A DNA stretch of 33,277 bases from Pegethrix bostrychoides GSE-TBD4-15B (lineage in GTDB: Bacteria > Cyanobacteriota > Cyanobacteriia > Elainellales > Elainellaceae). Below, piece by piece: positions 7,052 to 32,043 of the stretch. The notes under the pieces were generated by a model that saw only the letters and a list, made by a program, of their open reading frames with translations, ran no database searches and was not told the DNA's origin. Position 1 is the stretch's first letter. Every line of letters starts with the position of its first letter. The stretch is from assembly GCA_019359155.1 (NCBI GenBank), contig JAHHHV010000031.1:1-33277 (forward strand), in the 5' to 3' direction. Position numbers and translations under genes: made by a program.

Positions 7052-8875
7052 TTATTGAAGTTGCGATTGTAGCAACTGTGTCAGCTCTAGGATTTTGTCA
7101 CAGCGAAACTGATTGACCCATTCGCTCAGCACTGCCGCAGTCTGGCTTTCTGCTGCCGGAAGTTGAGCCAGTAAACCCAGAATTTGCTGCTCGTCTGTGC
7201 AGAGGGCAGCTTGATGCATCTGCTTAACCCAATCGAGATCCAGATGAACTAGCAGTTCTGGGGTCAGGTCTGTGGCTAATGCGCTAGGCAATGCAGTCGG
7301 CTCAGTCGGCTGATGAGCGGCTTTGGATAGCTCCAGCAAATGAGTGATCAGCGTTAGCAGATGATCGGCATTTTGGTGAATAATTCTCAGATGCTCTTGC
7401 TGAGTTGCCTGCAAGCTCAAATCACGCTCTAGCCGCTGCGTAAAGCCCAAGATGGCGTGCAGGGGCGTTCGCAGCTCGTGGCTAAGATGGGCAATCAGCA
7501 CCGCCGCGCTATGTGACTCCTGCTGAAACTCGCGCCAAGCTGCCGCCTGACTGCTGATTAAAAACTGGTAGTCTAGATCGCTCAGGCGATGCGTCATGGC
7601 CCAACGCTGCGCCTGCTGCAATGCCTCCCCCCGCAGCAGAGCAGCAGCATCACTGCGCTCAGAGTCCAGCCAGCGCTGTAAGGCTGCTGCATAGGGACGA
7701 CGTGCGGCTAGCTGTTGCTCCACCCAGTCTAAGTTAAAGACCTCCTGGTAAATCCGATTGGCCACCTGAAGCTTGCCTTGCCTCCGAGTCACCACCCCGC
7801 TCAGCAGCAGCGCCATCGCCGCCGCATCATTTGCCTCCACCACTGCCCCCTGCAAAACAGTTTGGTACAGCTCCAGCAAGCCCTGCGGCTCTTGCAGTAG
7901 TCGGTCGCGAATTGTTTTTAAATGTTCGGGCTGATCCTGAACTTCCCACTGGTCGATCAGATGCGAGCGCACCAGTCGCTCAATGGCCAGTATAGGCAGG
8001 CTGTAGTAGAAGTTGATTAAATGCGGGTTGGCGATCGGCAATTCCTGATCAAGCTGATAGCTCGTCTCCTCCAAGTCGCGATCTTGCTCATGCTCGCGTC
8101 CGCGCTCCGCCACGATTCGGCAAAGTTTTTGGGTCAAAAACGGCTGTCCGCCTGTCCAGTTGAGAATTTCTTTGAGTACAGTCTGAGGATGACTGACCGC
8201 ACCTTCGAGTCCGTCAATCAGCGGCTGCACTTCTGCTAGCTTGAAGCCCTGCAAATCAATTGCTCTGCCAATATTAAACGGCGTTAAGGCCGGATCGCGA
8301 ATCAGATCGCTGGGGGTCGCCACACCAAACAGCGCCCAGCCCAACCGCTCATAGGCCGGATTCTCAGCCCGCTGATTATAGCAGTAGCGGATCAACGCAA
8401 AGAAATCATCCACCGCAAAATCCAGACTCAGCACGCTGTCAATTTCATCCAAAAAAATAAACAGCCTTTCCCCTGAAACCTGCTTCAGCAAGCCTTCTAT
8501 GAACTGGCTCAGCCGCTGGATCAGCGAAAGCTCCGCAGAGTCGCCCCAGTTCACAAAGTCGAACTGGTCAAACAGATCAAAGCCTCGCACTACATCCACC
8601 ACAATGCCCGTATACCACTGCTCTGGCGTGATCGTTTTGCTGCCAATTCGTGCCAGGTCAATCGAAGCGCAGCGCATTCCCGCCTGCTGTAGTCGCTGCT
8701 TAGTGCGTAGCCGCAGACTTGACTTCCCCATCTGGCGCGAGTTGAATACATAGCAGAGTTCACCCTGAATCAAAGAATCGTATAGCTCAGCATCTGCCTG
8801 ACGTGCGACATAGCTGAGCGCATTCAGCTTGAGGCTACCTCCCACTTGATATTCGTATCCCGGCCTGAGCATCAT
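7052..8875 (-). CDS. AAA-like ATPase fused to an orphan HisKA domain and the kinase C-terminal module
   Basis: This 607-residue protein has an AAA-like (AAA_35) NTPase over about residues 5-330. It starts in the typical way, YEYQVGGSL, with Walker A NSRQMGKSS (K51) and Walker B LFIFLDEIDS. After a helical region comes a HisKA dimerisation/phospho-acceptor segment, AHLSHELRTPLHAILGF, with the His near 465. No HATPase_c or receiver follows. The chain goes straight to a C-terminal module (WVKQMHQAALCTDE...NQFRCDKILEL) nearly the same as the end of the 1308-residue kinase. The protein therefore cannot phosphorylate itself and is probably a phosphate acceptor or partner of that kinase. The start overlaps the stop of the upstream vMAP-AAA gene (ATGA) and is preceded by a GAGGAG ribosome site. 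Confidence 0.88.
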   Translation of the reverse strand: MMLRPGYEYQVGGSLKLNALSYVARQADAELYDSLIQGELCYVFNSRQMGKSSLRLRTKQRLQQAGMRCASIDLARIGSKTITPEQWYTGIVVDVVRGFDLFDQFDFVNWGDSAELSLIQRLSQFIEGLLKQVSGERLFIFLDEIDSVLSLDFAVDDFFALIRYCYNQRAENPAYERLGWALFGVATPSDLIRDPALTPFNIGRAIDLQGFKLAEVQPLIDGLEGAVSHPQTVLKEILNWTGGQPFLTQKLCRIVAERGREHEQDRDLEETSYQLDQELPIANPHLINFYYSLPILAIERLVRSHLIDQWEVQDQPEHLKTIRDRLLQEPQGLLELYQTVLQGAVVEANDAAAMALLLSGVVTRRQGKLQVANRIYQEVFNLDWVEQQLAARRPYAAALQRWLDSERSDAAALLRGEALQQAQRWAMTHRLSDLDYQFLISSQAAAWREFQQESHSAAVLIAHLSHELRTPLHAILGFTQRLERDLSLQATQQEHLRIIHQNADHLLTLITHLLELSKAAHQPTEPTALPSALATDLTPELLVHLDLDWVKQMHQAALCTDEQQILGLLAQLPAAESQTAAVLSEWVNQFRCDKILELTQLLQSQLQ

Positions 8876-10287
8876 GCTGTCTCCTCTTTGCCCAACTGGT
8901 CTTGAAAGTAACGCTGGTATAAATAACAGCTAGGTTGGATCTCTCCAGTCTGTATTTTTACCAAACCAAGACTTTCCAGCTTGTATAGCTCTATGGGTTC
9001 TAGATGGCCTTTGCTACTCAGTATCCGCCAAAATGCAGCCGCGAGCTGGGGCTGGTTTTGTAAATGGCTCAACTGTTGGCGCAGATGTTCGCTGTAGATG
9101 CCGGTGGATGTTGGTGCTGCCTGCAACAATTGCTCTAGCGTCATCTCTTGTCGCGCGAGGTGGTAAAGCGCTAGCCGAACCAGATAGGGATGCCCGCCAA
9201 TCATCTCCAGCAGCGAGGTTAATTTGCTAGCGCCTGCCTCGCCCGTTGCCCAATGCAGACCATGCCGCAGCGCTAACGCCTGCACCTGAACCAGCGTCAA
9301 TTCAGGCAGGGTAATCGGCAAGCCCACGTTGAAGGGCGACTGATTTAGATTTAGCGGAATATAGACCTCTGTGGCATGTACCACCACCAGCCGCAGCCTC
9401 TGCCAGACTTCATACTCAGAGGCATCTTCATACCAGGAGCGCAGCAGGGGCAGAAAATCTGCGGCCAGATCGGGATATTCAAACAGCCGATTCACTTCAT
9501 CAAAGGCCAACACCAGCGCCTCAACTGTCGGAAGCAGATACCGCTGAAAGTAGATCGTGCAGCTCATTTTGCTGCCAATTTCTGAGTTCCAATAGTCAGC
9601 TAGGGCGGGGGCTAACCCTAGCTGCTGCGCTATGTTGGCACAGAGCCAGCGCAAGAACGCATCGAGCGAGCTGAAAACTGCACGGTCGGCTCTTTGCAGA
9701 TTCAGCGTTGCGGTTTGCAGTCCGTGCTGCTTGGCGTGAGCCAAAATCCGGTGCATCAGCGAGGACTTGCCCATCTGTCGGGGCGCTCGAATCCGAATCA
9801 GGCTACCCGGCTTGCAGACTTCGCTGAACGCCCGCAGTTCAATCGGCGGACGCTCGATATAAAACGGTGAGCCCAGCGCCACTACGCCGTTGGGAAACTC
9901 TAGCCGATCTGAGGCGTGAACGACAGCTCTATCCCGGCCATAGCTTCCTAGCGACTGGCGCATCTGCTCCTGCTGATAGCGTCTAAACACCACATGCATA
10001 TTCTTCTTCGTAACCTTTTCGCCCAAAGCTTTGGAAAGCATCAGCCAAAGCTGTGATCCGATATCTCGAATGTAGCTGGCGTCATAGCTCAATCCGGCGG
10101 CAATTTCTTCATAGTTTTGACCTGCCCAAGATTGACAAAATACCGTCTGCTGTAAGTCGTTCAGAGACTTCGGCTGGAGCAGCGATTCTAAAATGAGTAG
10201 CGCTTCATCAGGGGTCATGGCTTCTGAGCGATCAGAATAGGTTTCTGCTGCTCTTGATTCTATCGCTATCGCTTGGCTCCCAAACAT
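8872..10287 (-). CDS. vMAP-type N-terminal HTH plus AAA-like ATPase
   Basis: This 471-residue protein has an N-terminal segment (about 24-104; TPDEALLILE..., 'FCQSWAGQNYEEIA', 'YIRDIGSQLW', 'ALGEKVTKKN') matching the vWA-MoxR-associated helix-turn-helix domain common in cyanobacterial conflict and signalling proteins. An AAA-like NTPase follows, with Walker A APRQMGKSSL near residue 170 and Walker B VLAFDEVNRL near 265, then a helical C-terminus. A perfect AGGAGG lies 5 nt before the ATG, which supports this start over Met24. It is the first gene of the minus-strand block and overlaps the AAA-HisKA gene by 4 nt, so two related ATPases are made in a coupled way. The vWA and MoxR partners of textbook ternary systems are absent here. 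The precise role is unknown. Confidence 0.87.
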   Translation of the reverse strand: MFGSQAIAIESRAAETYSDRSEAMTPDEALLILESLLQPKSLNDLQQTVFCQSWAGQNYEEIAAGLSYDASYIRDIGSQLWLMLSKALGEKVTKKNMHVVFRRYQQEQMRQSLGSYGRDRAVVHASDRLEFPNGVVALGSPFYIERPPIELRAFSEVCKPGSLIRIRAPRQMGKSSLMHRILAHAKQHGLQTATLNLQRADRAVFSSLDAFLRWLCANIAQQLGLAPALADYWNSEIGSKMSCTIYFQRYLLPTVEALVLAFDEVNRLFEYPDLAADFLPLLRSWYEDASEYEVWQRLRLVVVHATEVYIPLNLNQSPFNVGLPITLPELTLVQVQALALRHGLHWATGEAGASKLTSLLEMIGGHPYLVRLALYHLARQEMTLEQLLQAAPTSTGIYSEHLRQQLSHLQNQPQLAAAFWRILSSKGHLEPIELYKLESLGLVKIQTGEIQPSCYLYQRYFQDQLGKEETA

Positions 10288-10855: not shown

Positions 10856-13800
10856 ATGAACCATGTGAGTCGGGTGCAGGGCAGTCATCTTGCCTGCTCC
10901 CAGAGCGTGCTGATGCCCCCTTTAGCCGTCTCTAAATTCCTCAATCTGTTTCTAAACGCAGATCAAGTCGAGTCATCCACACTGCTAGAGTGCAGCCAAG
11001 CCTTTAGCGTTCGGACATTTCAGCTTGGTGAAGAGATTGGCCGATTTACAATAGATGTAGATACAGCAAATCAGCCAGCCCTGTTTTATCTCGTCTGCCA
11101 GGGTCGAGTGCGCTTGCTTTGTGAAAGTTTCGAGCAGTCTCGTGAGACTACCGCCATGCTGCTAGAGGCTGACGCGGCTTTTGGAGCAGACTTCCTGTTC
11201 ACAAATATTTTATTGCCTTATCGAGCAATAGCCGCAAGTTCAGTCCAGGTTGCCTCGGTGCCGACTGCCAGACTCACAGGTTGGTTAAAGCAGTTTTCGA
11301 GACTGGAGGGACTCTTAGGCAATTCCGTTCAGCAACGACAGCGTTTAATTTTCTTCAAGCGCTTTACAGTCCTGCATTCATTACCTAGCAGCTATATTCA
11401 TCAGTTTGTTGATCAGCTGGTTGAGCAGACGATTCCAGCAGGTTCCAGGCTGACCCAAGCTACGCCCAGTGAGGTCGGCCATTTCTGGCTGCGGCAAGGA
11501 ACGGTCAGCGGTTCTGGCGAGCTGCATCTGAATGGCCAAGCGCCCAGCCAAATGCAGCCGCCTACAATTGGTGAAGATTGGGGCTACCCTAATTTACCCC
11601 CTAGTGACTGGAAGGCTCAAACTGATCTGGTCGTTTACCAGCTGGCGCCTGAGCGTTGGGCGGAGATAGCGGCGTTAGGAGATGGAGTCCGCTCACCTAG
11701 CCGTTCGCTTCGGCTACCCGTTTCGCTTCCGCCTCAGGTTAGTCCACCGCAGGCTAAACCCGACTCCCCAACCCGCCCCAATCAGCTCGCCCATCAATCT
11801 GCCTCTATTGCCTTTCCCAAACCGCTCAAGCGTCGTCTGCTCAGCTTGCTCGACCGCTATCCCTGGATTGAACAGCAGAGTTCTTCCGACTGCGGCGCGG
11901 CTTGCCTGGGGATGATTGGCCGCTACTGGGGCAAGAATTTTCCCATCTATCTGCTGCGCGAGCAGGCCAACGTTGGGCGCTCCGGGGCTTCTCTGAAAAA
12001 CCTGGCGAGCGCGGCAGAAAATCTAGGGTTTCAGGCTCGTCCGGTGCGCGCCAGCCTCAGCCGCCTCGCTGAGCAGAAAAATCCCTGGATTGCCCACTGG
12101 GAAGGAATGCACTACGTGGTGGTCTACACCACCACCGCCAAACGGGTCTTTCTTGCCGACCCGGCGATTGGTAGAAGGTCACTGTCTCGGACAGAGTTTC
12201 AAGCCCACTGGACGGGCTATGCCCTGCTGCTCGACCCAACTGAACAGCTGCGGCAAACTGAGGTGAAGCAAGCCTCGCTGAATCGATATCTGACAGCACT
12301 CTTTCCCTATCGTGGCCTGATTTTACAGGTGATTCTAGTCTCCTTACTAATTCAGATCTTGGGACTAGTCACACCGCTGTTCACCCAAATTATTTTGGAT
12401 CAGGTGGTGGTGCAGAAAAGCCAGTCGGCTTTGAATATCTTTGCGCTGGGGCTGCTGCTGTTCAGCGTTTGGGGCATCTGTATGGCAGCGGTGCGGCAAT
12501 ATCTGCTCAGCTATTTCTCCAATCGGCTTGATTTAACGCTGATTAGCGGATTTATTCGACATACGCTGACGCTGCCCCTGAAGTTTTTTGAGTCGCGTCG
12601 GGTGGGCGATATTTTAACCCGCGTCCAGGAAAACCAGAAGATTCAGCGGTTTTTGATTGGGCAGGTGGTGCTGGCTTGGCTGGATTTCCTGACTGGCTTC
12701 GTCTATCTGGGACTGATGCTCTACTACAACTGGCGGCTGACGCTGCTGGTGCTGGCGCTGATTCCGCCGATTGTGCTGCTGACGCTGGGAGCGACCCCCT
12801 GGCTGCGGCAGGTTTCACGCCAGATCTTCAACGAAGCCGCCGATCAAAGCTCTACCTTAGTCGAGATGATCAGTGGTGTGGCCACTATCAAAGCGGCGGC
12901 GGCTGAGCAAGAGCTGCGCTGGGGCTGGGAAGATCATTTGACGCGGCAGATGAACATGCAGTTTAAAGGCCAGAAGCTCGGCATTGGACTCCAAACCGCA
13001 AGCGGCCTGATCAATACGCTGGGGAGTACGGCGTTGCTCTGGTATGGGGCAATGTTGGTGATTCAAGACGATCTGAGCGTGGGGCAGTTTGTGGCCTTCA
13101 ACATGATGACGGGCTATGTGATTAGCCCAGTGATTGCGCTGGTAAATCTCTGGGACGAGCTGCAAGAAGTGTTTATCTCGATTGAACGCTTGAATGATGT
13201 CTTTGAGGCTCAGCCAGAATCCGCTCAGTCTACGCTGCTGCTGCTGCCAACGCTGCGCGGAGAGATCCGATTTGAAGATGTCAGCTTCCGGTACGGGGAA
13301 GATGAAGACTACAATGTGCTGCAAAATATTTCGTTTGACGTAGAGGCTGGTCAGACGGTGGCCATTGTGGGGCGCAGCGGCTCAGGCAAAAGCACGCTGG
13401 TCAAGCTCTTACAGGGGTTGTATCCGGCCAGTCGCGGCCATGTGCTGATTGATGGACATGATATTCGGCATACCGCGGCTCAGTCTCTGCGTTCGCAGCT
13501 CGGCGTTGTCCCCCAGGAATGCTTTTTGTTCTCCGGGAGTATTCTGGAAAACATTACGCTTTATCGCTCTGAATTTACCCTAGAGCAGGCGGTTGAGGCG
13601 GCAAAGTTAGCTGAGGCTCATGCGTTTATTCAGTCACTGCCGCTGGGTTACAGCACCAAAGTGGGAGAGCGCGGCAGTTCACTCTCAGGCGGACAGCGGC
13701 AGCGGATTGCAATTGCTCGCGCCTTGCTAGGCGAACCGCAAATTCTAATTCTCGATGAGGCGACTAGCTCGCTAGATACCGAGTCTGAGCGGCGGTTTCA

Positions 13801-14005
13801 GCGCAATCTGGCGCAGCTTCGACGCGGTTCTACTGGCGCAGCGCGCACGACACTGATTATTGCCCATCGGCTCTCCACGGTTCGCAGCGCCGACAAAATT
13901 TTGGTACTCGATCGCGGCATTCTAGTTGAGCAAGGTGACCATGACGCTTTGATGAAGCTGCATGGACTCTACTACCATTTGGTGCAGCAGCAGCTCGATC
14001 TCTAA
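10856..14005 (+). CDS. hetC: HetC-like peptidase-containing ABC exporter (cNMP-like domain, C39, TM domain, ABC)
   Basis: This 1049-residue exporter has the HetC architecture. Residues 1-290 resemble one or two degenerate cyclic-nucleotide-binding folds. A C39 bacteriocin-type peptidase follows (about 333-460) with catalytic Cys346 in SSDCGAACL, His419 in MHYVVVYT and Asp435 in FLADPA. The ABC membrane domain spans about 485-770. The nucleotide-binding domain has Walker A VGRSGSGKST (about 836), signature LSGGQRQR (about 942), Walker B ILILDEATS and H-loop IIAHR. C39 exporters cut double-glycine leaders and export the cargo in one step. The HlyD adaptor, hetP and three leader-bearing small proteins lie downstream. 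In Anabaena HetC is needed for heterocyst development and its gene is next to hetP. All catalytic residues are intact. Confidence 0.93.
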   Translation: MNHVSRVQGSHLACSQSVLMPPLAVSKFLNLFLNADQVESSTLLECSQAFSVRTFQLGEEIGRFTIDVDTANQPALFYLVCQGRVRLLCESFEQSRETTAMLLEADAAFGADFLFTNILLPYRAIAASSVQVASVPTARLTGWLKQFSRLEGLLGNSVQQRQRLIFFKRFTVLHSLPSSYIHQFVDQLVEQTIPAGSRLTQATPSEVGHFWLRQGTVSGSGELHLNGQAPSQMQPPTIGEDWGYPNLPPSDWKAQTDLVVYQLAPERWAEIAALGDGVRSPSRSLRLPVSLPPQVSPPQAKPDSPTRPNQLAHQSASIAFPKPLKRRLLSLLDRYPWIEQQSSSDCGAACLGMIGRYWGKNFPIYLLREQANVGRSGASLKNLASAAENLGFQARPVRASLSRLAEQKNPWIAHWEGMHYVVVYTTTAKRVFLADPAIGRRSLSRTEFQAHWTGYALLLDPTEQLRQTEVKQASLNRYLTALFPYRGLILQVILVSLLIQILGLVTPLFTQIILDQVVVQKSQSALNIFALGLLLFSVWGICMAAVRQYLLSYFSNRLDLTLISGFIRHTLTLPLKFFESRRVGDILTRVQENQKIQRFLIGQVVLAWLDFLTGFVYLGLMLYYNWRLTLLVLALIPPIVLLTLGATPWLRQVSRQIFNEAADQSSTLVEMISGVATIKAAAAEQELRWGWEDHLTRQMNMQFKGQKLGIGLQTASGLINTLGSTALLWYGAMLVIQDDLSVGQFVAFNMMTGYVISPVIALVNLWDELQEVFISIERLNDVFEAQPESAQSTLLLLPTLRGEIRFEDVSFRYGEDEDYNVLQNISFDVEAGQTVAIVGRSGSGKSTLVKLLQGLYPASRGHVLIDGHDIRHTAAQSLRSQLGVVPQECFLFSGSILENITLYRSEFTLEQAVEAAKLAEAHAFIQSLPLGYSTKVGERGSSLSGGQRQRIAIARALLGEPQILILDEATSSLDTESERRFQRNLAQLRRGSTGAARTTLIIAHRLSTVRSADKILVLDRGILVEQGDHDALMKLHGLYYHLVQQQLDL

Positions 14006-14041: not shown

Positions 14042-14064
14042 CCAAAATTCTGCCAAATTGGCAG
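14042..14064. promoter_or_regulatory. Operator-like palindrome, copy 1 (upstream of hlyD)
   Basis: The core is TGCCA-AAT-TGGCA (14051-14063), preceded by CCAAAATTC. The same A-rich flank plus TCTGCCA-N3-TGGCA core recurs at 16119 and 16624. It lies in the 204-nt gap between hetC and the adaptor gene, with AT-rich TTATTTATATAG and TATAGAT promoter-like sequences 25-55 nt downstream. The protein that binds it is unknown. Confidence 0.65.
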
Positions 14065-14209
14065 TTAATAAATTAGCTCACCTCTAAAATAGTTATTTAT
14101 ATAGCAGCACTATAGATCTTTCCGTGATCTGCTCTGCCTCGTCAGAAATTGCTTTCCAGTCTTTTCAGCATTACCGTAATATTGCTCGCTCTCTATTCAG
14201 GTCACTACT

Positions 14210-15664
14210 ATGCAGCAGCTTGACTCCTCAACATCCTCAAACTCCGCTGTTCTGATCCAAAACCTCGAACTCGAATCCATCCAGCAACTGCCGCATCCTG
14301 AATCGGGTGCAATCTATGGCGGTATCGTGACCACAAAACCCGTGACTGAAAAAATCGGGCGCAGCAGCCCTGTTCCCGAGCGGTTGGCAACGGCTCAGAC
14401 TGCAAGCTGGAGTCCGACGCTGCAAACCTTGCTCGATCAGCCGCCTTCCAGCTTTCCGCGCCATCTGCTGCTGGGTGGCTTGCTGTTCGGGACGGTGTTG
14501 ATCGCTTGGGCTTGGCTGGGTAAGGTGCAGGAGATTAGCCATGCTCAGGGGCGATTGATGCCGCAGGGTGAGCTGTACAAGGTTCAGCCCGTGACGCAAG
14601 GAGAAATTGCTAAACTGCTGGTTACGGAAGGGCAGTCAGTGAAGGCGGGACAGGTCGTTGCCGAGCTAGATAATCGGCTGGCGGCTTCAGAAATCGATCG
14701 GCTCAAGCAAGTCTTGGCGGCCTCAGAGCTGCGATTATTTCAGACTCAAGAGTTGATCGATCGCACGCAGCTAGAGGCCCAGACGCGACGCGCAATCGCG
14801 GCGGCTGGATTACAGGCGCAAACCGCATCTATTCAGCAGGTGCAGGCACAAGCTCGCTCAATTCAAACTCTGCTGCCGCAGCTCCAGGCTGAAAAAGCGG
14901 CCTACGAGTCAAGGCTAGGGCGGTTGCAGCCGCTGGCACAGGAAGGAGCAATTGCTCAAGATCGGCTGTTTGAGATTGAGCAAACCTTACGCCAGCAGCA
15001 GCAGACGATTAGCCAAAATCAAGGAGAGCTGGAGCAAATCCAATCTGATGGTAACCGCCTGCAAGCTGGATTAACTGAAAAGCAGGCTGAGGCTAAAAGC
15101 AGCGATTTAGAAACACAGCAGCAGTTGCAAAAGCTGAAAATGCAGGCGGCTGAAGTGAACGCTGAAATTGCCGAGGCCAAGGTGGAGATGCAGGCGGCTC
15201 ACACTAGAATGAGCGATTTATTGCTCTATGCGCCCGTGAATGGTACGGTGACTTCGCTGAAGATCCGTAACCCTGGGGAAGTAGCTCAGCCTGGACAGAC
15301 GATTGCTGAAATTGCCCCTGCCAATATGCCGCTGGTCTTGTCGGCCTTCTTGCCCACCTCAGAAGCGGGGTTGGTGCAGCCCGGAATGCCCGTGCAAATC
15401 AAGTTTGATGCTTTTCCTTACCAGGAGTATGGGTTGGTTTCAGGCAGCATTATCACGATTTCACCAGATGCTGAAATCCACGAGCAGATGGGCGCAGTCT
15501 ATCAGGTCAAAGTTGCGCTAGAGCACAGTTCGGTGATTCGACAAGAGATTCAGCTCAAGGCAGGGCAGACAGGACGAGCCGAAATTATTGTGCGCCAGCG
15601 ACGCATTCTTGACGTTCTACTCGATCCAATTCGGCAGCTTCAGAAAGGCGGTATTAGTTTGTAA
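14210..15664 (+). CDS. HlyD-family periplasmic adaptor (membrane fusion protein)
   Basis: This 484-residue protein has a cytoplasmic N-terminus, a single membrane helix near residues 85-104 (LLLGGLLFGTVLIAWAWLG) and then the first half-lipoyl motif (VQPVTQGEIAKLLVTEGQSVKAGQVVAELD). A long Gln/Ala-rich coiled-coil hairpin spans about 155-330. The second half-lipoyl and beta-barrel follow (APVNGTVTSLKIRNPGEV...PGQTIAEIAP) and the family's closing strands (KAGQTGRAEIIVRQRRILDVLLDPI). Such adaptors join an inner-membrane C39/ABC exporter to an outer-membrane TolC-type channel. None is encoded in the window, so a shared TolC is likely. The gene sits behind hetC with a repeated palindrome in front and hetP 40 nt behind. 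Confidence 0.93.
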   Translation: MQQLDSSTSSNSAVLIQNLELESIQQLPHPESGAIYGGIVTTKPVTEKIGRSSPVPERLATAQTASWSPTLQTLLDQPPSSFPRHLLLGGLLFGTVLIAWAWLGKVQEISHAQGRLMPQGELYKVQPVTQGEIAKLLVTEGQSVKAGQVVAELDNRLAASEIDRLKQVLAASELRLFQTQELIDRTQLEAQTRRAIAAAGLQAQTASIQQVQAQARSIQTLLPQLQAEKAAYESRLGRLQPLAQEGAIAQDRLFEIEQTLRQQQQTISQNQGELEQIQSDGNRLQAGLTEKQAEAKSSDLETQQQLQKLKMQAAEVNAEIAEAKVEMQAAHTRMSDLLLYAPVNGTVTSLKIRNPGEVAQPGQTIAEIAPANMPLVLSAFLPTSEAGLVQPGMPVQIKFDAFPYQEYGLVSGSIITISPDAEIHEQMGAVYQVKVALEHSSVIRQEIQLKAGQTGRAEIIVRQRRILDVLLDPIRQLQKGGISL

Positions 15665-15704
15665 CACATTTGCAGTTCGTGAAAGCCCTACAAGGAGTAA
15701 CTCA

Positions 15705-16082
15705 ATGCATTCAAACTTTAATCAGCAGCCTGACAAAGTTATGACACCTGCTCAGTTCACGCAGGTTGTAGAAGCGATTCTAGAAGGTAAATACTCATGG
15801 GCTTGTGTCTTGATCTTACGCTTCGCGGGCTACAATCCACTCCATTACATTCCCTATCGCACCTACAACCGCCTGATGAAAGATCACGCTCAGCAGAGCC
15901 GCACTAAAATTAGGGGCTATGACGAGCGCCAACCTATCTCTGAGCCGGCTTATGCTTGCCATCACGGTATTCGAGACTTGGGGTATCTGGAGCCTTTAGA
16001 TCAGCAAACTAACGTCAGAGGCGGTGAACGTTCAGCCATTTTGGTCAGCCTTAGCTCTATTTTCAAGACCCTGAAAGCTTAG
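15705..16082 (+). CDS. hetP: HetP-family protein
   Basis: The ATG at 15705 is chosen because AAGGAG lies 7 nt before it; the open frame extends further upstream without a ribosome site. The 125-residue product has the HetP-family core almost unbroken near residues 10-62: DKVMTPAQFTQVVEAI, then GKYSWACVLILRFAGYNPL, then HYIPYRTYNRLMK. The C-terminal half is variable. In Anabaena HetP and its paralogues control timing and commitment of heterocyst differentiation, and hetP lies directly after hetC. Here an HlyD gene separates the two, 40 nt upstream. HetP has no known enzymatic motif. In an organism that may lack heterocysts it could instead govern the peptide-export genes or another cell-fate decision; that is an inference. 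Confidence 0.9.
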   Translation: MHSNFNQQPDKVMTPAQFTQVVEAILEGKYSWACVLILRFAGYNPLHYIPYRTYNRLMKDHAQQSRTKIRGYDERQPISEPAYACHHGIRDLGYLEPLDQQTNVRGGERSAILVSLSSIFKTLKA

Positions 16083-16118
16083 GCTTCAGGTCATGCTCTG
16101 GTGCTCCCAGCACTATCG

Positions 16119-16141
16119 CCAAAAATCTGCCAAACTGGCAG
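16119..16141. promoter_or_regulatory. Operator-like palindrome, copy 2 (upstream of peptide gene 1)
   Basis: The core is CTGCCA-AAC-TGGCAG (16127-16141), with 6-bp perfect arms preceded by CCAAAAAT. It ends 53 nt before the peptide-1 ATG. It matches copies 1 and 3 over a 23-bp block with only a few differences. Confidence 0.68.
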
Positions 16142-16194
16142 CGCTAAAGTTGAGAATTCGCCTATTGTTGCAGTAGCTTAAATGAGAGAAACCT

Positions 16195-16521
16195 ATGATT
16201 ATCACCGATTTAGAATATCTTGACATGCTGACCGGATCGAATCATTTAGGAGCAGGTAGGCAGACTATTTCACTTAGCCTGAGCCAGGGCATCGTTCTGT
16301 TGAGTTTAAATGGCAAAGAGCTATTCAAGACCACAGTTCCAGATGACAACCTATCCGACTTCAGCATTTCTACTAGTGTATCCAAATTTCGACGACTCTA
16401 CCGACTTGGAAAATCTCATGGTATCAGTAGCTCCGCTCTAACTCTCCTCAAATCTTGGCCTGGTATCGCTACCTATACCTCTGCATCTAGTTCAGTTGAA
16501 ATGTTTTCAGCAATATCCTAA
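16195..16521 (+). CDS. Candidate secreted small protein 1 with double-glycine-like leader
   Basis: This 108-residue protein has a leader (1-21) that opens MIITDLEYLD and ends HLGAG. It aligns without gaps with the leaders of the next two small genes, sharing I-x-D-L-x-[YH]-L-[DE] at the same distance from a terminal small-small pair. C39 peptidases such as HetC cut after Gly-Gly or Gly-Ala, so cleavage after G21 (or A20) is inferred. The mature part is about 87 residues, has no cysteine and is Ser/Leu-rich. Its middle is basic (KFRRLYRLGKSHG), unlike the other two. I do not recognise the mature domain. The gene has its own upstream palindrome and a Rho-independent terminator, so it is probably a separate transcription unit. 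Confidence 0.8.
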   Translation: MIITDLEYLDMLTGSNHLGAGRQTISLSLSQGIVLLSLNGKELFKTTVPDDNLSDFSISTSVSKFRRLYRLGKSHGISSSALTLLKSWPGIATYTSASSSVEMFSAIS

Positions 16522-16552
16522 ATATTGCTTAGATTTCAATGGGTCACAACAG

Positions 16553-16574
16553 CGTGCTTCAAGCACGTTTTTTT
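16553..16574 (+). terminator. Rho-independent terminator after peptide gene 1
   Basis: A GC-containing hairpin, CGTGC-TTCAA-GCACG, is followed at once by seven T residues. It lies 31 nt after the stop codon. Confidence 0.85.
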
Positions 16575-16623
16575 ATGAGTCGTAATCTATCAAGAGCTAA
16601 CTTTTAATCTTCTATTTTAGATT

Positions 16624-16646
16624 CATAAAATCTGCCAGATTGGCAA
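16624..16646. promoter_or_regulatory. Operator-like palindrome, copy 3 (upstream of peptide gene 2)
   Basis: The core is TGCCA-GAT-TGGCA (16633-16645), preceded by CATAAAATC. It lies between the peptide-1 terminator and the peptide-2 start, 87 nt before the ATG. AT-rich sequence with TATATC and TTATGTTT follows and could hold a -10 element. A 6-bp hairpin, CAGCTT-AAACA-AAGCTG, lies further down at 16682-16698. Confidence 0.66.
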
Positions 16647-16732
16647 CTAAGGCTTATTTATTTCGTATATCTTATGTTTAACAGCTTAAACAAAGCTGCC
16701 CACAACAAACTACGAACTTCGAGGAAAAACTC

Positions 16733-17056
16733 ATGATTATCTCCGACCTGAACCACTTGGAAGTGATCTCTGCTGGCGCATCTGTTGAAGGTGGCTCGAT
16801 TGTCAGAAGCTATACTCAATTCGACAAAATCAGCATTGACTTCAACTCTAAGAACAACTTTGCAACCAACGTCAACTCACCCAAAACCTTCAGCAACAGT
16901 GCTTCTGCTGGTGCGAAGGGCGATGCGATCAACAACACCTACTTCCCCTCCTATTCGTTCACCAAAGCTGATACGGTTGCTGTCACCGAGCTAGGCGGCG
17001 GCTCCTTCTCGGCTAGCACCTCGGCTGCTGTGATCAACTTCATCCCTTTCTACTAA
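16733..17056 (+). CDS. Candidate secreted small protein 2 with double-glycine leader
   Basis: This 107-residue protein has a canonical leader, MIISDLNHLE to VEGG, with Gly20-Gly21 as the inferred HetC/C39 cleavage site. GAGG lies 8 nt before the ATG. The mature part of 86 residues has no cysteine and is rich in Ser, Asn, Ala, Thr and aromatic residues. It contains SNSASAGAKGDAINN and GGGSFSASTSAA and ends in hydrophobic VINFIPFY. No enzyme or bacteriocin family is recognised. Alternating small polar and aromatic residues could suit a beta-rich or amyloid-like secreted protein, as proposed for the GG-leader EbfG biofilm proteins of Synechococcus elongatus; this is only an analogy. The gene is flanked by its own palindrome and a strong terminator. 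Confidence 0.85.
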   Translation: MIISDLNHLEVISAGASVEGGSIVRSYTQFDKISIDFNSKNNFATNVNSPKTFSNSASAGAKGDAINNTYFPSYSFTKADTVAVTELGGGSFSASTSAAVINFIPFY

Positions 17057-17245: not shown

Positions 17246-17578
17246 ATGCAGAGTAGCTTATTGATTGCAGACTTAGACTATCTAGAAGCAGCCGCTGAGA
17301 TGAGCCAGATTACAGCAGGCTACGTTTGGGTTAGCACGAGCACATCGGCTGGCTCTGGTTTCAGCAATGCCAACGCAGCCGCATTGGCGCTTGGCGCTAA
17401 AACTAGCACTAACACCCAGACGTTTGCTCAGGTTCAGAATTATCAAAACTTCTCGTTTAGTCGTGCTATGGCGACAGCTAGCGCCTCCGCCCAAAACGGC
17501 AGCAGCGGCGGCAGAGCCTCGTCTACCAGCATGACGCTCTCGTTTTCTAGCGGATCTTTCTCAAGCTGGAATCCTTGA
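17246..17578 (+). CDS. Candidate secreted small protein 3 with double-glycine-like leader
   Basis: This 110-residue protein has a leader (1-25) that aligns with the other two after a four-residue extension: LLIADLDYLE, then ITAG, with cleavage inferred after Gly25 (Ala-Gly rather than Gly-Gly). The mature part is 85 residues without cysteine. It is very rich in Ser, Ala, Gly and Asn, with segments such as TSTSAGSGFSNANAAALALG and AQNGSSGGRASSTS, and ends FSSGSFSSWNP. No conserved domain is recognised. No copy of the TGCCA-N3-TGGCA palindrome precedes it and the ribosome site is weak, so it may be controlled differently or rely on read-through from gene 2. The parvulin-like gene follows 74 nt later. 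Confidence 0.78.
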   Translation: MQSSLLIADLDYLEAAAEMSQITAGYVWVSTSTSAGSGFSNANAAALALGAKTSTNTQTFAQVQNYQNFSFSRAMATASASAQNGSSGGRASSTSMTLSFSSGSFSSWNP

Positions 17579-17652
17579 TTCATGGGTAAAACCAATGAGA
17601 TAATAATTTGGCGTACTGCATGCGCCATTTAGGATGCGGAAAGGTGAGTTCT

Positions 17653-18384
17653 GTGAGTATACTGCTTGAACCAAACACTGTCATAGAGTTCTTGAAGCGA
17701 GAGATTCAAATTAAGGAGATCTGTCAAGAAATCTTGTCTAGACAAGCGATTGTTAGGGCATCTGAAGCTCGAGGCATTATCGTAACGCCTGAGGAAATTC
17801 AGGCTGAAGCAGATCGCCAACGATACCAGAATCGACTGGAGAGTGCAGCAGATACGCTAAATTGGCTAGAAGAACAGCTCATCACCCCAGCAGACTGGGA
17901 GGCAGGCATCCGAGAAGCGCTGCTGAGTCAGAAGCTAGCAGAAGATCTGTTTGGCCGTGAAGTCAGTCGATATTTTGCAGAACATCGGCTCGACTTTGAG
18001 CAGATCTTGCTTTACAAAATTACTGTTCCCTACGAACAGCTCGCGCAGGAGTTGTTTTATCAAATTGAGGAAAATGAGCTGAGCTTCTACGAGGCCGCGC
18101 ACCTCTATGAAATAGATCAGCAGCGTCGGCTACAGTGCGGCTATGAGGGCAAGCTTTACCGCTGGAGCCTGAAACCTGAAGTTGCATCGGTTGTCTTTGC
18201 AGCCAGATTGGGAGAGGTAATTGGCCCTTTGCAAGTTGGGCAGACCTATATGCTGTTGAAGGTAGAAGAGTTTGTAGCAGCGGAATTAACGCCAGAGATT
18301 CGCCAAGAAATCATCCACCGGCTATTTCAGGAGTGGCTAGCAACCGAGCTGAACTATCTCATTCATCACGAAGGTTTGGCATGA
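17653..18384 (+). CDS. Parvulin/SurA-like peptidyl-prolyl isomerase, no signal peptide
   Basis: The GTG at 17653 is preferred because AAGG lies 8 nt before it; a TTG start 15 codons upstream has no ribosome site. The 243-residue product has a SurA-N-like helical part (about 1-105; 'AIVRASEARGIIVTPEEIQAEAD', 'WLEEQLITPADWEAGI') and then a diverged PpiC fold (about 110-215; LSFYEAAHLYEID, 'FAARLGEVIGPLQVGQTYMLLKVEEF'). There is no signal peptide or lipobox, so it should stay in the cytoplasm. Several usual PpiC glycines are missing (CGYEGKLYRW in place of the GG-G-G motif). Placed after the leader-peptide genes, it may be a chaperone that keeps the precursors unfolded for HetC. Isomerase activity is uncertain. 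Confidence 0.8.
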   Translation: MSILLEPNTVIEFLKREIQIKEICQEILSRQAIVRASEARGIIVTPEEIQAEADRQRYQNRLESAADTLNWLEEQLITPADWEAGIREALLSQKLAEDLFGREVSRYFAEHRLDFEQILLYKITVPYEQLAQELFYQIEENELSFYEAAHLYEIDQQRRLQCGYEGKLYRWSLKPEVASVVFAARLGEVIGPLQVGQTYMLLKVEEFVAAELTPEIRQEIIHRLFQEWLATELNYLIHHEGLA

Positions 18385-31173: not shown

Positions 31174-32043
31174 TTACCCGTCATTCGTGGAAAGCTTCGC
31201 AGCGTCAAGATTCAGAAAGGGAATTGCGCCACTGCCGCCCAGAACCTGGGGAAACTTGCCATCCCACTTTTCAATCGCCTGCTTCTGCAACAGCTCTGCG
31301 GTCAGGGTTTCTCGCAGCAATCGCTGGGCTTCGGCCTGTCCTTTGGCACGATTGACGGTCGCCTCGGCCTCTTGTTCTGCCTCTCTGGCAATATATACCG
31401 CACGTTGAGCGCGCTGTTCGGCAATTTGCTTTTCTTCGACTGCCTTAGAGAATTCAGTTGAGAAAGCGAGATCAACCACACTCGTATCCAAAACGATAAT
31501 TCCGTATTTCTCCAAACGACCGCTTAACGCTTCATCAAAGTCCTGCTTTAGCTCATTGCGCTTAGTAATTGCTTCTTCTACAGTTCGGCGAGCCGCCGCA
31601 ATTTTGAAAGACTCCTGAGTCTGGGGTGCGATGATTTTTGAAACAATGTTTTGTAACGTACCTTGAGTACGTCGAATCGAGACAACCTGGATCGGGTCTA
31701 GACGAAAGTTGATCGCAAAGCTCGCAGAAAGCTGCTGGAGATCTTTGGTCGAGCTTTGAGCCGGCACTTCAAATTTTTGGACGGTCAGATCATAAAAATC
31801 AACTTTTGAGACGAACGGCGGCTTGAAGTGAACGCCCTCTAAGAGCACGCCATCTCTGGCTTTACCCAAAATGCTGATCACCCCGGCTTCTCCTGGATTG
31901 ATAATCACATAGGAGCTGAGGCCAATGATGGCGACGATTGAGAGAATTGCGACAAGCAGCGGTGTCTGCCAGCTAGTTTGACTTTTCAAGGGAGTTGCCT
32001 CACGAGTAGAGAGATTGGCTGAGCTTGAATAGCCCTCAACCAT
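31174..32043 (-). CDS. SPFH/prohibitin-like membrane protein
   Basis: This 289-residue protein has one membrane helix near residues 28-48 (TPLLVAILSIVAIIGLSSYVI), then the SPFH/band-7 domain (VIINPGEAGVISILGKARDGVLLEGVHF..., about 45-220). A long Ala/Glu-rich helix follows (QIAEQRAQRAVYIAREAEQEAEATVNRAKGQAEAQ; about 210-255). Together these are characteristic of prohibitin-type proteins. They form large ring- or cage-like assemblies that organise membranes and regulate FtsH-type proteases; cyanobacteria carry several. I do not assign a specific paralogue. The gene is divergent from the small membrane protein at 32147 and apparently monocistronic. Confidence 0.9.
   Translation of the reverse strand: MVEGYSSSANLSTREATPLKSQTSWQTPLLVAILSIVAIIGLSSYVIINPGEAGVISILGKARDGVLLEGVHFKPPFVSKVDFYDLTVQKFEVPAQSSTKDLQQLSASFAINFRLDPIQVVSIRRTQGTLQNIVSKIIAPQTQESFKIAAARRTVEEAITKRNELKQDFDEALSGRLEKYGIIVLDTSVVDLAFSTEFSKAVEEKQIAEQRAQRAVYIAREAEQEAEATVNRAKGQAEAQRLLRETLTAELLQKQAIEKWDGKFPQVLGGSGAIPFLNLDAAKLSTNDG

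Follow-up and report, generated by a model that had tools for sequence, protein, structure and literature searches.

Which protein recognizes the palindrome that recurs in a peptide-secretion gene cluster of the cyanobacterium Pegethrix bostrychoides GSE-TBD4-15B? The DNA under study, called the window below, is a stretch of 33,277 nucleotides (nt) (GenBank assembly GCA_019359155.1, contig JAHHHV010000031.1, positions 1 to 33,277 of the forward strand). A sequence-only reading had described three recurring blocks of 23 base pairs (bp) around the core TGCCA-N3-TGGCA, and an exact palindrome lies inside each block, on the + strand at 14051–14063, 16128–16140 and 16633–16645 (palindromes 1 to 3). 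The arms are perfect in all three copies, the 3-nt centre varies (AAT, AAC and GAT, respectively) and an A-rich left flank stands beside each copy. As had been proposed, every copy sits in the gap before a gene, namely hlyD (start at 14210), peptide 1 (16195) and peptide 2 (16733); the statement that the window has no further full copy also held, the exact scan returning only these three, with a one-mismatch copy at 31378. Our analysis indicates that the palindrome is very probably a class II activator site, to which the cluster's own HetP-family protein would bind as a dimer, its third predicted helix reading the half-site.

The palindrome is conserved in related loci. An exporter search yielded 79 of them (1.40 megabases (Mb) in total), in which copies were classed as intergenic or genic by greedy gene calling. 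Together they hold 132 copies, 114 intergenic ones spread over 51 loci and 18 in called genes; a random scatter or a location within genes, which the sequence-only reading had named as the mark of a dispersed repeat, is thus not the pattern found. Among all 1024 five-base arms, TGCCA has the most intergenic copies, the next being TTTTT with 35, and the other 59 arms of equal base composition have at most two each. The 3-nt spacer is specific, as spacers of 0–2 or 4–8 nt give only 0–5 copies. Across filamentous and pleurocapsalean cyanobacteria, the palindrome is kept before the same kinds of genes, i.e., hlyD (palindrome 1 in the window), leader peptides and the isomerase, and in L013 and L068 it also precedes RTX-like repeat proteins, which were identified by eye. 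The cluster is also present on a contig labelled Candidatus Gracilibacteria (L073), which falls among Hydrococcus in the HlyD tree and is probably mis-binned.

The sites also stand at a fixed distance from a promoter element. With the window included, there are 117 intergenic sites, 89 of which have the start of a gene or leader peptide within 400 bp; once duplicates and sites with incomplete flanks are set aside, 86 remain. In this set, a TANNNT hexamer starts 29 nt from the palindrome centre at 44 sites and 28 nt from it at 15 (59/86 in total); other offsets (8 to 74) have a mean of 2.3 and a maximum of 9, and the mirrored-strand control has TANNNT at 28–30 in 13/86. All three window sites have a phased, sequence-predicted -10 box on the + strand, TAAAAT at 14085–14090 (28 nt from the centre of palindrome 1), TATTGT at 16163–16168 (29 nt, palindrome 2) and TATCTT at 16668–16673 (29 nt, palindrome 3). 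The aligned intergenic sites share an upstream A-rich stretch, a C preceding the left arm and (A/G)CA after the right arm, and this profile has no conserved -35 hexamer. By convention, position -12 is assigned to the T that opens the -10 box. The palindrome centre would then lie near -41, because the -10 box is phased at 28–29 nt. A class II activator layout, with a TAN3T -10 box at a fixed distance and no -35 box, is supported by this geometry, which together with the conservation across loci also favours the earlier suggestion that the palindrome is an operator through which a dimeric regulator would control the secretion genes. The 5.72-Mb genome holds 11 exact copies (one for the reversed-pattern control); all eight outside the cluster sit within open reading frames (ORFs), and none of the eight has a phased -10 box. 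The remaining 28 of the 117 intergenic sites have no assigned gene, and some of them in L019, L027 and L040 have TTGACA past the palindrome and lack the phased -10 box; a second promoter layout or mode may exist there.

The best candidate for the binder is the cluster's own HetP-family protein. Its gene (15705–16082, + strand) lies between hlyD and peptide 1, immediately preceding the latter, and encodes 125 amino acids with a leader-like tail, IRDLGYLE...VRGG. The protein scores 116 bits (E = 3e-34) on the family profile NF037966, well over its curated cut-off of 45, and is the sole HetP match in this genome. Beyond exporter parts, peptides and the isomerase, HetP is the most widely shared family, occurring in 59 loci by clustering; by profile it occurs in 66 of 80 loci (window included) and in 49 of the 52 site-bearing ones. 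An AlphaFold2 model has three confident helices (residues 15–26, 30–40 and 51–70), which we infer to form a helix-turn-helix, and Tyr51 and Arg52 (codons at 15855–15860, + strand) open the third. A dimer of this protein would bind TGCCA-N3-TGGCA centred near -41, replacing the -35 box, and would help RNA polymerase to start at the -10 box 28–29 nt from the palindrome centre, co-activating the exported peptides and hlyD together with the hetP gene that follows it. The half-site would be read by the beginning of the third predicted helix, with Arg52 specifying G at base 2 and residue 51 influencing base 1.

These two residues covary with half-site bases 1 and 2. Within the class, NF037966 gave 111 matches, distributed over 71 of 291 genomes. 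Stretches of about 10 kilobases (kb), 100 in number, were taken around 101 of the 110 HetP matches outside the window; pooled with the window and the 79 loci, and with identical ORFs dropped, they yielded 149 unique HetP ORFs. Intergenic CCA-N3-TGG sites within 6 kb of a HetP ORF and with the -10 box at +28/+29 were scanned, half-site bases 1 and 2 being left free and identical contexts dropped. CCA tops the 64 possible cores with 190 sites (duplicates kept), the next having 87 and the middle value being 9. Where HetP has Arg52 (175 sites in 90 loci), G occupies base 2 in 342 of 350 half-sites; where it has Thr52 (four sites in three loci), A does so in 8/8, which gives TACCA with the same phasing. 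One additional site adjoins a HetP protein outside these two groups. A quick tree built from 88 HlyD proteins requires two changes to account for Thr52, and its well-supported branches leave no fewer than two origins. For base 1, T is found in 301/322 half-sites with Tyr51, and with Gln51 (12 loci, 16 sites) the promoter-proximal half begins with A in 12/16.

The same switch is seen between clusters of one genome. In Hydrococcus rivularis NIES-593, a single contig carries an Arg52/TGCCA cluster (L029) and a Thr52/TACCA cluster (L049), and Hydrococcus sp. Prado102 shows the same contrast between L047 and L065. In all four loci, the intergenic sites match the HetP of their own cluster; one extra TGCCA copy in L047 is inside a coding sequence. 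Myxacorys (L084) combines Thr52 with two TACCA sites, and no TGCCA site with a phased -10 box was found in its genome. When 388 genomes were scanned for TACCA-N3-TGGTA-NCA and a phased -10 box, five matches turned up in four genomes (two matches for the reversed control); only Myxacorys has two, both in its own cluster, and G339, G179 and G242 have a single match each. In some stand-alone HetP relatives, Glu stands at the Arg52 position (QETYSQ in L189, HEIYSQ in L193 and QEIYTK in L201), and these relatives may have lost or changed DNA reading.

It is rather unlikely that some other widespread regulator, e.g., of the LysR type, binds the palindrome while HetP serves as a peptide precursor or cofactor. 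The T-N11-A pattern, present in the palindrome, also suits LysR-type sites, and HetP has no match to known DNA-binding folds. HetP-like proteins were moreover taken for possible bacteriocin precursors (Wang et al., 2011; PMC3140520). However, HetP residue 52 and site base 2 change together, both in the two separate origins and from one paralogous cluster to another within a genome, and no other small conserved non-transport gene is as widely common to the loci. That such paralogous clusters have different sites, each suited to the HetP encoded beside it, speaks against a LysR-type regulator. That the site is a repressor operator is very unlikely: a palindrome adjoining a -10 box could block polymerase, but the +28/+29 phasing puts it in place of the -35 region, with no separate conserved -35, which is the NtcA class II layout (PMC3898017).

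Binding by HetR, the heterocyst master regulator, is more doubtful still. This genome has two HetR genes (G000:C88:49242–49688 and C5:41348–41794; L011 and L012), neither of them near any of the 11 exact palindromes, and HetR sites, as described in PMC4192349, are likewise odd-centred palindromes with the consensus CA-n-CA right flank in common. However, HetR requires GGG-N5-CCC according to the same source, whereas the core is GCC-N5-GGC in all three window copies. Of the 79 loci, 50 were submitted to a HetR search, which returned a match for 34 of the 50 genomes. Intergenic palindromes are present in 12 of the other 16, including Hydrococcus rivularis NIES-593, Xenococcus sp. PCC 7305 and Pleurocapsa sp. 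CCALA 161; several of the 16 are metagenome assemblies and may be incomplete. The palindrome also varies with the same-cluster HetP inside one genome. The differing core and the 12 palindrome genomes without a HetR match rule out HetR as a general binder. A dispersed repeat without regulatory role can practically be dismissed, as flanks vary between copies and position, spacer and -10 phasing are all specific, despite the eight exact copies within ORFs of this genome and six identical repeat-like copies in one HetP-negative genome (G319).

Motif and family also go together across genomes. Counted by hand over the 291 genomes (reversed control 0–3 per genome, not totalled), the motif with a phased -10 box is present at least once in 62 of the 71 HetP-positive and in 50 of the 220 HetP-negative ones; two or more matches occur in 49 and 10, respectively. 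The latter ten, all without HetP, have 27 such places, 17 of which lie within ORFs of at least 120 amino acids in any frame (a lax criterion); the remainder consists of six near-identical copies in one genome and four others, one of them in the sister genome of a HetP-positive one. For the most part, these matches resemble chance or a repeat. The six near-identical palindrome copies with a -10 box in HetP-negative G319 (L235, L245, L251 and L253–L255) are probably a mobile repeat.

Several points weigh against HetP as the reader. Co-occurrence with the motif is expected anyway and is not proof of HetP binding by itself, because hetP belongs to the cluster. Of the 149 HetP ORFs, 54 have no such site within 6 kb; these include four Ser51 Nostoc HetP proteins, YRTYIR paralogues, ORFs in loci truncated at the end of a contig and some Arg52 proteins of the cluster type, and some of the 54 (e.g., L041, L076 and L167) have a palindrome without a strict -10 box. 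Nine of the 71 HetP-positive genomes, one of which is a Thr52 genome, have no motif match. The Thr52 group comprises three loci with two origins; a codon-pattern search found no other in 36 genomes of its own order, and in 42 family genomes it found only the known Myxacorys Thr52. No PDB sequence matched HetP up to E = 10, and Foldseek gave no significant match for the full model or the domain alone, the best of the re-examined matches of the full model having a Z of 3.9. Searches of 66 members against Pfam gave only scattered weak matches. Anabaena HetP is described with a predicted membrane segment (PMC4133259), and HetP-GFP, like HetC-GFP, collects near the heterocyst poles (PMC4133259, PMC10986499).

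In the Nostocales, sites of this kind stand before hetP paralogues. With HetP as the reader, the Gln51 loci, which belong to the Nostocales where named, suggest autoregulation. In 11 of 12, a same-strand site precedes the HetP ORF by 113–861 bp, distances that run to stop-to-stop ORFs and may span small genes; in the twelfth, the site precedes hlyD, which is followed by hetP. The heterocyst RNA NsiR8, as identified by Rfam, lies directly behind two sites. Over the 291 genomes NsiR8 has eight matches, four above the cut-off. An exact palindrome with a phased -10 box is centred 36–38 nt before the model start at three of the eight, four have GGCA-TTT-TGGCA with a damaged left arm, and the weakest match has no such element at this distance. 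A regulatory chain HetR-HetP-NsiR8 would be plausible. In L209–L217 (Nostocales, groups A and B), intergenic TGCCA-N3-TGGCA-ACC with a phased -10 box has no nearby protein start. Several of these loci have alike downstream DNA that ends in a terminator-like GAGTGGGAG...CTCCCACTC-T run and is perhaps an unlisted small RNA. At Nostocales sites of groups A, B and D without a close protein start, no Rfam match exceeded the gathering score; the sub-threshold matches are three, all in L210 and of unrelated families. In L213, the start of a rubrerythrin-like gene, named by eye, is about 380 bp behind a site.

The palindromes belong to a cluster of the PteB/EbfG type by the criterion of Peptidase_C39 and ABC domains with adjoining double-glycine (GG) leader peptides, the leaders being assigned by inspection. 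All of its genes are on the + strand. The C39-peptidase ABC exporter (10856–14005) is HetC/PteB-like by domain matches and has an N-terminal cNMP-binding-like domain, the latter match being under the Pfam cut-off. It is followed by the HlyD-family adaptor (14210–15664, domain and family matches), the HetP-family gene, peptide 1 (16195–16521), whose N-terminus is leader-like by inspection and which has no Pfam or NCBIfam match, and peptide 2 (16733–17056), with a double-glycine leader by inspection and relatives in other loci. Peptide 3 (17246–17578) and a PpiC/SurA-like isomerase (17608–18384, the longest ORF, with a true start perhaps further in) complete the series, and the window scan found no exact palindrome upstream of either. 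The N-terminus of HlyD (14210–14360) has a leader-like stretch ending in IYGG, which recurs in several other loci, as though the adaptor also bore the signal that the exporter recognises. Two AAA_35 ATPases, one of them with a HisKA domain, are encoded at 7052–10287 on the - strand, divergently from the exporter gene; clustering of the locus proteins finds this family in only three loci.

The tail of HetP may connect the protein with the exporter. A regular expression for IxDLxYLE...GG matches 65 of the 149 HetP tails, against an average of 0.05 for shuffled tails. Such a tail, KIxDLxYLEx10GG, was described on HetP-like proteins and taken to indicate possible bacteriocin precursors (Wang et al., 2011; PMC3140520), a view that a survey of 2015 repeats (PMC4558948). 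The tail can also be read as a signal that would let the exporter recognise an activator and not as the mark of a precursor. A wider view, which we put forward tentatively and towards which we do not quite lean, is that HetP proteins form an unrecognised class of DNA-binding activators whose tail, in these clusters, is the exporter's own double-glycine signal. Through binding or cleavage of the activator, the exporter could couple peptide transcription to secretion; HetC-HetP of heterocyst development would descend from such a secretion circuit, and hetP paralogues and NsiR8 would be direct HetP-family targets in the Nostocales.

Heterocyst differentiation needs HetP, yet the relevant passages of the cited papers assign it no molecular activity. 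If the proposal is true, the DNA site, the reading residue and the natural specificity switch make HetP a testable transcription activator, a candidate regulator is named for a widespread peptide-secretion system, and an old secretion circuit is linked to a bacterial cell-fate decision. Palindromic class II activator sites are already a known kind. A 2016 PNAS paper reportedly deals with HetP and its homologues. A literature search, mostly of abstracts and with subscription papers mostly outside its reach, found no report of HetP binding DNA, of this palindrome, or of a HetP-family reader for such a site with a natural specificity switch.

The promoter layout is that of NtcA class II promoters, in which the site is centred near -41.5 with a TAN3T -10 box (PMC3898017), compared with near -41 and the same box here. 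The NtcA site is GTA-N8-TAC, unlike TGCCA-N3-TGGCA, and an NtcA-type site is ruled out; the earlier view that the palindrome is of neither the NtcA nor the LexA type agrees with the three window copies, which do not fit GTA-N8-TAC. The HetR operator shares the odd centre and differs in its core, and the palindrome occurs without a HetR match. Among secretion systems, the PteB/EbfG system of Synechococcus elongatus PCC 7942 likewise has a C39-peptidase exporter for small GG-motif proteins, and the regulation of ebfG was called 'yet unknown' (PMC4997328). The Group II bacteriocin clusters also combine a long C39 exporter, GG peptides and a HetP-like protein with the KIxDLxYLEx10GG tail, but HetP is a possible precursor in that account and a proposed activator in ours, and the main text of that paper has no promoter or palindrome terms (PMC3140520). 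In Anabaena PCC 7120, HetP acts in heterocyst commitment and belongs to the same NF037966 family, and hetP lies behind hetC, which encodes a C39-peptidase exporter (PMC4133259, PMC10986499). Unlike the window, the Nostoc hetC loci L081, L083, L086 and L088 have a Ser51 HetP and no palindrome in the locus.

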